Source: Actinomycetes bacterium
GTDB lineage: Bacteria; Actinomycetota; Acidimicrobiia; Acidimicrobiales; JAKAVM01
NCBI GenBank assembly: GCA_021827485.1
Contig: JAKAVM010000112.1
Coordinates: 1-32,027 of the forward strand
Reading direction: 5' to 3'
Length of the DNA: 32,027 nucleotides
A model generated the notes under the pieces. The model was not told where the DNA came from and did not search any database. It saw only the letters and a program-made list of their open reading frames with translations. Shown in pieces: positions 1 to 32,027 of this stretch (the first letter of the stretch is position 1; the number at the start of each line of letters is the position of its first letter). A program made the translations under genes and the position numbers.

Positions 1-120
1 AGAACGGTAGAGATTGGTCTGTTCAAGAGCTAAGTTCCAGACGTATCTAGCATCACTACAATGGCCAGACATGCCTTGACTTTGGATATCAGTTGGATAG
101 AGGCGATAGCGATGGGACAT
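1..120 (-). CDS. tnpB: TnpB (IS200/IS605-family, N-terminus only; runs off the window edge)
   Basis: My own translation of the minus strand from ATG at 120: MSHRYRLYPTDIQSQGMSGHCSDARYVWNLALEQTNLYRS. RYRLYPT...ARYVWNLALEQ is a typical TnpB N-terminal signature. Not in the ORF track because it is truncated. Confidence 0.88.
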   Translation of the reverse strand, partial: MSHRYRLYPTDIQSQGMSGHCSDARYVWNLALEQTNLYRS

Positions 121-205
121 CTGAGGAAAGTTTACCAAAGGGGTATGACATCGATGGGCGATCCTTGACCCACGACTAAAGTCGTAGGCTTGCGGCTCGG
201 TCTTG
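1..205 (-). mobile_element. IS200/IS605-type element, left end plus start of tnpB (copy 1, incomplete)
   Basis: Minus strand: TTGAC | CAAGACCGAGCCGCAAGCCTACGACTTTAGTCGTGGGTCAAGG..., a hairpin (ACGACTTTAGTCGT) followed by tnpB. The same sequence recurs at 3268 and 31855. Confidence 0.85.
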
Positions 206-2700: not shown

Positions 2701-3267
2701 TTAACCGAATGAGCCCGATATTTGTAAGTAGCAGCGGTCCTTCGAAATTCCATTGGGGTTCCACCATCCGGCAAGGGATAGACGAACAAGCTCACCACGA
2801 TTAATCTTCTCGTGTGGTGCATCGAGTCCAGCAAAGGCAATGGAGTGTCCATCACTCGTGCGATACCTGCCATCTCGAAAGAGAAGTTGCTGATCGGCGA
2901 TCCAGAATCCTGTGCTACATGCGGGTAAAGCGTCGCACTTGGCTAGGTAGTAATTCTGTCCAGTATCAGTGAGTTTGCCTTCATAGGTTTCAAGGATGGA
3001 ACCCATCCATGGTTTGACAAGTTCCAGCACCGCCTTCTTCATATTTCGGGTAGTCTCAATGTGCTCAGCGCTACTGACGAGTACGTCCTCGACGTGAGGA
3101 GGAATCACGGTCTTACGTTTCTTAAGATTCATCCGCCACCGTTGACCCACACGGTACGTGTCTGGCATCGGATATTCACCAGATTCGTCGAATAAACGAA
3201 CAGCCTTGCCGCTATTAATAGTCAGACCTCCGACACAAGCATGTACTCCCATATGGGTCCGGCTGAC
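2701..3267 (-). pseudogene. Dual-OB (DuOB-like) protein, 3' part, separated from its first 7 codons (3588-3568) by the 300-bp element
   Basis: VSRTHMGVHACVGGLTINSGKAVRLFDESGEYPM...IPPHVEDVLVSS...GKLTDTGQNYYLAKCDALPACSTGFWIADQQLLFRDG. Upstream codons MNVEVLI at 3588-3568 join in frame when 3268-3567 is removed. Confidence 0.7.
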
Positions 3268-3567
3268 CGAAATCGAGCCGCAAGCCGACGACTTTAGTCG
3301 TGGGTCAAGGCTCGCTTGACGATGTCGTACCCCAGTTGTATAGTTGATTCTAACTGGTGGCGAGAACCAAGCCACCAACAATTAGCAGTACCGCCCGGAG
3401 CTTTGGCTCCGCGCATACCCCAGGGCCTGGGGCATGGCATCGGAGAAACAACCGATGTTGCTCGTCGAAGTCCACCTAGAGTGGCAGCGAGAACTTCTGA
3501 AGTGGAGGCAGCGTAAGTTGTCGCCACCGAGGGAATCCCACGACTTTAGTCGTTGGGAGGAGGTCAA
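3268..3567 (+). mobile_element. 300-bp tnpB-less IS200/IS605-type element (left end + omega-RNA-like body + right end)
   Basis: Left end CGAAATCGAGCCGCAAGCCGACGACTTTAGTCGTGGGTCAAGG matches copies 1 and 3. Right end is TCCCACGACTTTAGTCGTTGGGAGGAGGTCAA. Flank is CTGAC on the left, with no target duplication. Confidence 0.85.
3356..3567 (+). ncRNA. Candidate omega-RNA (reRNA) scaffold; guide would be the flank AATGAGTACTTCGACATTCA...
   Basis: Consecutive hairpins: GGTGGC/GCCACC, CGGAGC-TTTG-GCTCCG, CCCCAGG-G-CCTGGGG, CATCGG/CCGATG and the terminal CCCACGACT/AGTCGTtGGG, placed at the right end as in TnpB elements. Confidence 0.65.
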
Positions 3568-3584
3568 AATGAGTACTTCGACAT

Positions 3585-4067
3585 TCATGGTTCTATATGC
3601 TCCAACTTACAATTGAAGATATCCCCGATCCAACGCGCTGCTATTCCGCGATGGCATGCACTGGCCTGTTTCTCTACGCACAAGAGAGCGGGACGCCGAA
3701 ATTCAGATAGGCAAGTGACGATTAAGTTTGGATCGATCTTATTCAAGACTTCACGCTCATATCCTTCAATGAAAGCTGACGAGAGAGTATTACGGTCACT
3801 CTTTCTCATCTGTGAGAGGTGGTCTACATCACGTTGCAGACGGCGTAATTCGTTGGATGGCGCTAGAACTTTACAGACGATCGACTTGATGCCCTCTTCG
3901 TGAAGAGCGTGGTCGAGCCTTGTGGCATTTGCGAAGGCGTACTTTGCTCCCCGCACTGCTCGCCGCTGTCTCACATCGACGAGTGCATCAACTTTGGCTT
4001 GCCGAAGAGCAGCAAAGAAGCTGGATTTATCAAATTCATAAACTCCTATTGTGAAGAGCTTGTCCAC
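3585..4067 (-). CDS. DUF488-family protein
   Basis: LFTIGVYEFDKSSFFAALRQAKVDALVDVRQRRAVRG...LLCVEKQASACHRGIAA: DUF488 signature. Stop overlaps the DuOB ATG (ATGA at 3588-3585). Confidence 0.82.
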   Translation of the reverse strand: MDKLFTIGVYEFDKSSFFAALRQAKVDALVDVRQRRAVRGAKYAFANATRLDHALHEEGIKSIVCKVLAPSNELRRLQRDVDHLSQMRKSDRNTLSSAFIEGYEREVLNKIDPNLIVTCLSEFRRPALLCVEKQASACHRGIAARWIGDIFNCKLEHIEP

Positions 4068-4090
4068 CTATAGCGCTTTGCAACAATCCG

Positions 4091-4774
4091 CTAAATTCGA
4101 CTTCCATCGGGATGATACGCCCCAACGGATGTAATTAAGGTATCATCAAAGCCCAATGACTGCTGACCACCGTCGATCCTGCGTATTACAGTTTCATGAT
4201 CGCAGATAGTTCCATCAGGATCTATGTGCCGGACTGCAACCACCCCTCTTTGCCTAAGGTTTTCAGCTATGAGTTTGGTCCGATGACAGACTTCCGGTCG
4301 TGCTTCACTACACAATAGTGCAATTCGATATCCGTGCCGAGTTCCAGTTTCGATGCGTGAAAGACTTTCGACGAATGCTGGCTTGCTTGCGATGAAATCA
4401 TATCGAACGTGTCCTAAATGGTCATAGCAAGTGGGGTCATCAGGCCTACCGCCGAGTTGGTCTCCCATGAACAGGTAGCCGATTCCATCGCGTCGAAGTT
4501 TGTCAGCCAATACCGCACTACTGTATTCGGGACGATATTTCGAATGGGGCCTAGACCGAACGTCTACAACCCAATTGATGCCCACGTCCTTAAGGCGTCT
4601 AAGTAGCGATTCGAATGCCTCACTGCCATAGCCGATTGTCATCACAACAAAGGCACCATCACCCGAGTTCCATGTAGGAAATCTCTGATTCGCCACTACG
4701 GAGCGAGTGCCACCTACAGTCGCTTCAAAAGTCGAGGTGTCGATATTTATCGGAAGCCGGTTAGTAACGCTCAT
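4091..4774 (-). CDS. DUF488-family protein (second copy)
   Basis: FVVMTIGYGSEAFESLLRRLKDVGINWVVDVRSRPHSKYRPEYS...LGGRPDDP...IALLCSEARPEVCHR. ORF extends to 4822; ATG at 4774 is another possible start. Confidence 0.85.
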   Translation of the reverse strand: MSVTNRLPINIDTSTFEATVGGTRSVVANQRFPTWNSGDGAFVVMTIGYGSEAFESLLRRLKDVGINWVVDVRSRPHSKYRPEYSSAVLADKLRRDGIGYLFMGDQLGGRPDDPTCYDHLGHVRYDFIASKPAFVESLSRIETGTRHGYRIALLCSEARPEVCHRTKLIAENLRQRGVVAVRHIDPDGTICDHETVIRRIDGGQQSLGFDDTLITSVGAYHPDGSRI

Positions 4775-5147
4775 CCTACCACAGCGCCAATAAATAATCG
4801 GTGAATGTATACGGGAACCCATATATCAAGATTTTCTTATGTTCGCTTTGTGGATAGCTAGAAATAGAAGCTGTGAATCTCCTATGCTCGGTTACAGCTC
4901 TCTTGAACACATATTCGAGTATAGCGCTGCTCGTCATATAAATCAGATCATTGCGATTTTCAGCCAAATAGCAGTTCTTGAACCTGAATCAACTCCAAAT
5001 CCCGTACATGCGAGCCTACAATATAGGAGATTACGTCCATGGCTGAAAAGAAGAAAATTAAGCCTTTCCTAACACTAAGAATTGAAAGAGAATGCGGCCA
5101 AACTTATCTTTGCCAGCCAAATACCTCTTATTGAGATAGCTAAAACC

Positions 5148-31854: not shown

Positions 31855-32027
31855 CAAAACCGAGCCGCAAGCCGATGACTTTAGTCGTGGTTCAAGTTGT
31901 AATGGACCGGCCGACTCCCGTTGCGCAATTTAGACGTGGGTCGTTCACAATTGAAGAGTACGTTGCCACAAAATTGAAGGGAGTCAGCCATTGCCATCAA
32001 ATAATTATAGCCGAGGAGGGTTTGTCC
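31855..32027 (+). mobile_element. IS200/IS605-type left end, copy 3 (extent unknown; window ends)
   Basis: TTGAC | CAAAACCGAGCCGCAAGCCGATGACTTTAGTCGTGGTTCAAG, the same left end as copies 1 and 2. Confidence 0.72.
31902..32027 (+). CDS. Unidentified ORF running off the window end
   Basis: My translation: MDRPTPVAQFRRGSFTIEEYVATKLKGVSHCHQIIIAEEGLS, open to the last base; begins 12 bp after the left-end core. Confidence 0.35.
   Translation, partial: MDRPTPVAQFRRGSFTIEEYVATKLKGVSHCHQIIIAEEGLS

Follow-up and report, generated by a model that had tools for sequence, protein, structure and literature searches.

In the archaeon Haloquadratum walsbyi, transposase-free elements of IS605 type were described as palindrome-associated transposable elements (PATEs); they have near-terminal palindromes, make no target duplication, outnumber the coding elements and also occur as end-only forms of about 50 bp, which arise by repeat-mediated deletion (PMC3119063). 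IS200/IS605 elements leave their short target unduplicated and insert on its 3' side (PMC8612924). Almost all TnpB omega-RNAs have a 3' hairpin that is separated from the guide by 10 nt, and those of the 'derived' NADXN clade have two stem-loops on the 5' side (PMC10278001).

The stretch of DNA analysed here (the window, 32,027 nucleotides from an uncultured actinomycete of the order Acidimicrobiales) contains at positions 3268-3567 of the forward strand a complete 300-base element (type A), delimited by a multicopy alignment to both ends and by an empty-site homologue. It has no transposase gene of its own and, according to the list of open reading frames, is too short to encode one. The preliminary description took it for a non-autonomous derivative of an IS605/TnpB element, and this view is supported by its exact ends, its TGAC target, the related tnpB element that the host genome also carries, and many dispersed, partly near-identical copies.

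The element splits a three-gene operon, DUF488-DUF488-DuOB (2701-4822). Codons 1-7 of DuOB, recognised from the joined frame and a homologue alignment, lie at 3568-3588 of the reverse strand, and the remainder of the gene (PF22557; domain search and homologue alignment) at 2701-3267 of the same strand. Deletion of 3268-3567 had been said to join DuOB in frame, and it does: the empty-site junction reads ...GGTCCGGCTGAC|AATGAGTACTTCGAC... and the product is a DuOB protein of 195 aa, which aligns without a gap across the junction to a protein encoded by a Rhodothermus marinus plasmid. The plasmid has the same gene order and the same 4-bp ATGA start/stop overlap, has no insert, and its operon adjoins cas1. 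Because the alignment to this insert-free operon is gap-free, we conclude that DuOB was split after codon 7 by the insert. Among 59 relatives a Pfam search turned up no DuOB homologue that was more than weak or partial, and in 397 genomes of the order the only DuOB recovered at the protein level was that of the window itself. A DNA-level search of four other genomes for the empty sites of ten copies gave no junction-spanning match; the matches fell almost all on a tRNA gene beside the copy on contig C120, the rest were to the flank of the C113 copy, and one weak match was at the C64 site.

Both boundaries of the element are exact and target duplication is absent. CTGAC at the left junction (3263-3267, forward strand), also remarked on in the preliminary description, is the insertion target and the presumed TAM; the family consensus is NTGAC, whereas the corresponding 5-nt motif of ISDra2 is TTGAT (PMC8612924). 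TGAC abuts 22 of 24 left ends located at different sites, for which the binomial chance is about 3e-51. On the other side the element runs to ...GGGAGGAGGTCAA, ending in GGTCAA at 3567, beyond which the sequence is unrelated; the last four bases, TCAA (3564-3567, forward strand), form the terminus in all 24 right ends extracted. A hairpin with the core ACGACTTTAGTCGT is subterminal at both ends, the outermost bases differ and there are no terminal inverted repeats. The left hairpin (3285-3304, forward strand) is common, with small changes, to the compared left ends. The right one (CCCACGACTTTAGTCGTTGGG, 3537-3557, forward strand) is supported by the fold and by pair counts, lies 10 nt from the end, and its position is comparable to that in TnpB omega-RNAs (PMC10278001). 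This end anatomy, a shared subterminal hairpin combined with a TGAC target, is of the IS200/IS605 type.

A complete tnpB-bearing element of 1370 bp, whose ends are the same as those of the tnpB-less copies, is present on contig C64. Its TnpB is intact (410 aa), and its three RuvC positions read GIDRG, EKLQ and NADIN (D/E/D catalytic positions); it is recognised by the TnpB models of Pfam and NCBIfam and matches in sequence the ISDra2 TnpB structures. The tnpB stop codon is 52 nt before the right end, so that the last part of tnpB lies within the RNA body, as it does in ISDra2; insertion without target duplication and, as we infer for our element, a guide read from the flank are further likenesses to the ISDra2 system (PMC8612924). 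ISDra2 has tnpA and tnpB, whereas the 300-bp element has neither. Of such an element the tnpB-less copies have kept the left end and, from the 3' part, about 176-190 nt. At the start of the window (1-205, reverse strand) there is a second tnpB-bearing member of the family, identified by sequence, domain and left-end comparison, of which only the left end and the first 40 codons of tnpB precede the contig boundary. The similarity of its left end to that of the 300-bp element, pointed out earlier, is real (88% over 60 bases, 199->140). Its TnpB is a 5' fragment only; the best candidate for a TnpB partner is the complete C64 copy. A close relative of the tnpB element (92% identity) occurs in another actinomycete metagenome-assembled genome, and the genomes of other relatives contain at most a right-end fragment. 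Viral contigs yielded neither a TnpB relative nor the reRNA motif, and plasmids yielded no DNA match. The host also has a second TnpB family with different ends, represented by 420-aa genes on contigs C5 and C45. Upstream of these genes, out of frame, we found HLVWWAKYRKGLL, which by eye only resembles the start of a Y1 transposase and is perhaps a remnant.

The host genome was searched as a fragmented assembly of 2.78 Mb (128 contigs, 92% complete), in which the 300-bp element had 44 BLASTN matches. Five full-length matches, the window copy included, were at least 96% identical, and other full-length ones 81-86%. Nine tnpB-less copies are complete (contigs C32, which is the window, C118, C15, C43, C120, C113, C67, C21 and C50). 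Their identity reaches 99.7%, they fall in groups A and B, with the C67 copy mixed, and near-identical copies occupy unrelated sites. Additional left ends at the edges of contigs C104, C71, C96 and C107 bring the tnpB-less copies of the window type to at least 13; the exact number is uncertain, because many contigs end within a copy. A second tnpB-less type (D), with similar ends and a different body, has at least four distinct right flanks and one complete copy (contig C55, 1371-1695). The C55 copy interrupts an apparent cas2 start just past the end of cas1, the two gene calls having weak Pfam support (E 0.0079 and 0.0037). The tnpB-bearing left ends number seven distinct ones, including 205->1 of the window; the tnpB-less form occupies more genomic places than the nuclease-carrying form from which it derives.

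Shorter derivatives were also seen. Copies of about 48 bp, which adjoin TGAC and consist of left and right ends fused via the shared hairpin, are present on contigs C110 (1608-1655) and C80 (about 568-615), and recall the loss of the core by repeat-mediated deletion that is known from PATEs. On contig C112 (about 773-816) two right ends face each other as a long perfect palindrome, CTTTGACCTCCTCCCACGACTTTAGTCGTTGGGAGGAGGTCAAAG; no other part of the element is present there. The window itself has an isolated left-end fragment beside TTGAC (31855-31896, forward strand; comparison with other left ends), and because of this stray fragment it holds three pieces of the family. In lacking a transposase, in its near-terminal palindromes, in the absence of target duplication, in being commoner than the coding element and in having end-only forms, the family is like the PATEs. 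The PATEs, however, are archaeal and were described before omega-RNAs were known, with RNA folding and guides outside that description, whereas in the present family the folding of the retained part as RNA was put to the test, and the same genome encodes a complete cognate TnpB.

The preliminary description had compared the hairpin chain of the element to the right end and reRNA of TnpB elements, and this likeness was borne out. The reRNA/omega-RNA-like body (3392-3567, forward strand), derived from the 3' end of tnpB and the right end, is 85% identical to the C64 element over element positions 149-300; the last approximately 176 nt match the right end/reRNA region of C64, and other tnpB right ends match too. 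The fold of the 300 bases was better than that of 200 out of 200 shuffled sequences (z = -5.65). A covariance model and pair counts support this body: in an alignment of 14 copies (nine tnpB-less, five of tnpB type) 99.2% of the cells of the consensus helices were paired, compared with 96.6% in shuffles and 34-49% in slid registers, and both-sided changes occurred in five pairs, in excess of the shuffled and slid controls, although relatedness of the copies inflates such measures of pairing and conservation, and part of the variation may predate the loss of tnpB. Hairpin 1 (3393-3414, forward strand) shows compensatory changes between tnpB-less and tnpB copies: its arms are CGGAGC/GCTCCG in groups A and B, GAGGACT/AGTCCTT in tnpB copies and GATG/CATC in type D, always paired. 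In the tnpB copies this hairpin doubles as protein-coding sequence, in the tnpB-less copies it is non-coding. Alternative paired versions exist for hairpins 3 and 4 as well. A further hairpin, GGTGGC...GCCACC (3356-3376, forward strand), is kept in group A and B copies and was not seen upstream of hairpin 1 in tnpB copies. Groups A and B are 84-93% identical over element positions 93-300 (93% at 93-124), compared with 55% over positions 47-92. These observations on sequence and pairing conservation support the retention of the reRNA region in the tnpB-less element. In three variable blocks of the RNA-body alignment (columns 77-79, 111-120 and 142-146) the copies, with and without tnpB, form a mosaic, as if sequence had been exchanged among them by gene conversion.

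In the body of the element, too, 10 nt separate the 3' hairpin from the guide, and this spacing, like the two 5' stem-loops, agrees with the omega-RNAs of NADXN-clade TnpB proteins, the C64 TnpB having NADIN (PMC10278001). Omega-RNAs of that clade are cut from the tnpB mRNA (PMC10278001), whereas a tnpB-less element would need its own transcript. A promoter-like sequence, TTGACG-17-TATAGT (3316-3344, forward strand), is in register with TAAACT upstream of tnpB in the tnpB-bearing copies, and in type D the sequence TTGCCC-16-TATAAT stands directly before hairpin 1. Because the -35 hexamer is not conserved in group B copies, the promoter reading is suggestive only. No Rfam family matched the 300-bp element, which weighs little, since few TnpB RNAs are in Rfam.

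The would-be guide of the window copy is AATGAGTACTTCGACATTCA (3568-3587, forward strand), whose sole genomic match is its own site. The guides at the 23 readable right ends are all distinct (23/23), none had a second full match in the assembly, where only chance-level partial matches were seen, and the assembly does not contain TGAC followed by the window guide. Lack of second matches would be expected if each guide recognised only its own empty site, and a passive element would show it too.

We think it probable that 3268-3567 is a non-autonomous, PATE-like element of the IS200/IS605 family (IS1341-like), whose movement depends on a Y1 transposase in trans and which probably continues to supply a guide RNA to TnpB, likewise in trans. 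It would have arisen from a tnpB-bearing element by loss of most of tnpB, with retention of both subterminal hairpins and of the 3'-terminal reRNA region. A Y1 transposase acting in trans would excise it and insert it 3' of NTGAC by single-strand peel-and-paste. The RNA of the element would have a scaffold of roughly 180-210 nt, with the last approximately 16-20 nt read from the right flank, and with this RNA a TnpB made elsewhere in the genome would cut the TGAC-marked empty site after excision, upon which sister-chromosome repair of the cut site would restore the element. Judged from sequence, action of the RNA in trans is plausible, and both the guide supply and the mobilisation by Y1 are steps that we infer. 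A Y1 transposase domain was not found in the host assembly (92% complete, fragmented); a genome of the same genus had seven Y1 transposase matches, and the mobiliser of the host may be lost, divergent or unassembled.

The main competitor, which we consider rather unlikely, is a passive miniature element of PATE or MITE kind, moved by a transposase in trans via its hairpin ends, whose body is an inherited remnant without a functional guide RNA. The end-only copies of about 48 bp, the poorly conserved promoter and the existence of PATEs without evidence of RNA function (PMC3119063) agree with such an element, and recent spread could partly explain the conservation. However, recognition by the transposase is expected to need the end hairpins only, whereas the 176-nt body is conserved in divergent tnpB-less groups, with compensatory pairing that extends to the non-coding hairpin 1.

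It is also conceivable, but very improbable, that the sequence is an immobile repeat, no longer transposon-like, which was domesticated, either as a regulatory RNA or for a structural role close to genes. Conserved RNA structure and the many different genes adjoining the inserts would fit this explanation; the split DuOB gene, the near-identical copies at unrelated sites and the lack of a second full genomic match for any guide speak against it. That the 300 bp are an ordinary, conserved intergenic part of the DUF488-DuOB operon, as their position within it might suggest, has practically no likelihood left: it is refuted by the dozens of matches elsewhere in the genome and by the Rhodothermus operon, which has the same ATGA overlap and where the homologous locus is without the insert.

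It is possible, although on balance doubtful, that guide-RNA-only transposons have been amplified in this genome: its tnpB-less copies, which number at least 17 and are of two structural types, would each make an RNA of their own and be served in trans by a few TnpB genes. Altae-Tran and colleagues reportedly described in 2021 standalone IscB omega-RNAs in Ktedonobacter, with many guide RNAs acting in trans to few nuclease genes per genome. That system is based on IscB, ours on TnpB, but it would be a precedent that lowers the novelty of such an arrangement.

Transposase-free IS605 derivatives were already known; the present case adds a bacterial family whose retained segment has a conserved guide-RNA fold, together with a cognate TnpB in the same genome. 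With 23 guides, a fixed TGAC motif and one complete cognate TnpB, the genome offers a natural test set. The older transposase-free IS605 derivatives, the PATEs, gain a concrete reading, namely that some of them may carry guide RNAs. Were the RNA functional, transposition, retention and the supply of nuclease would be separated from one another, and one TnpB could protect many short elements. Should the amplified guide-RNA-only set prove true, a guide RNA and the ends would suffice to maintain and spread an IS605 element.
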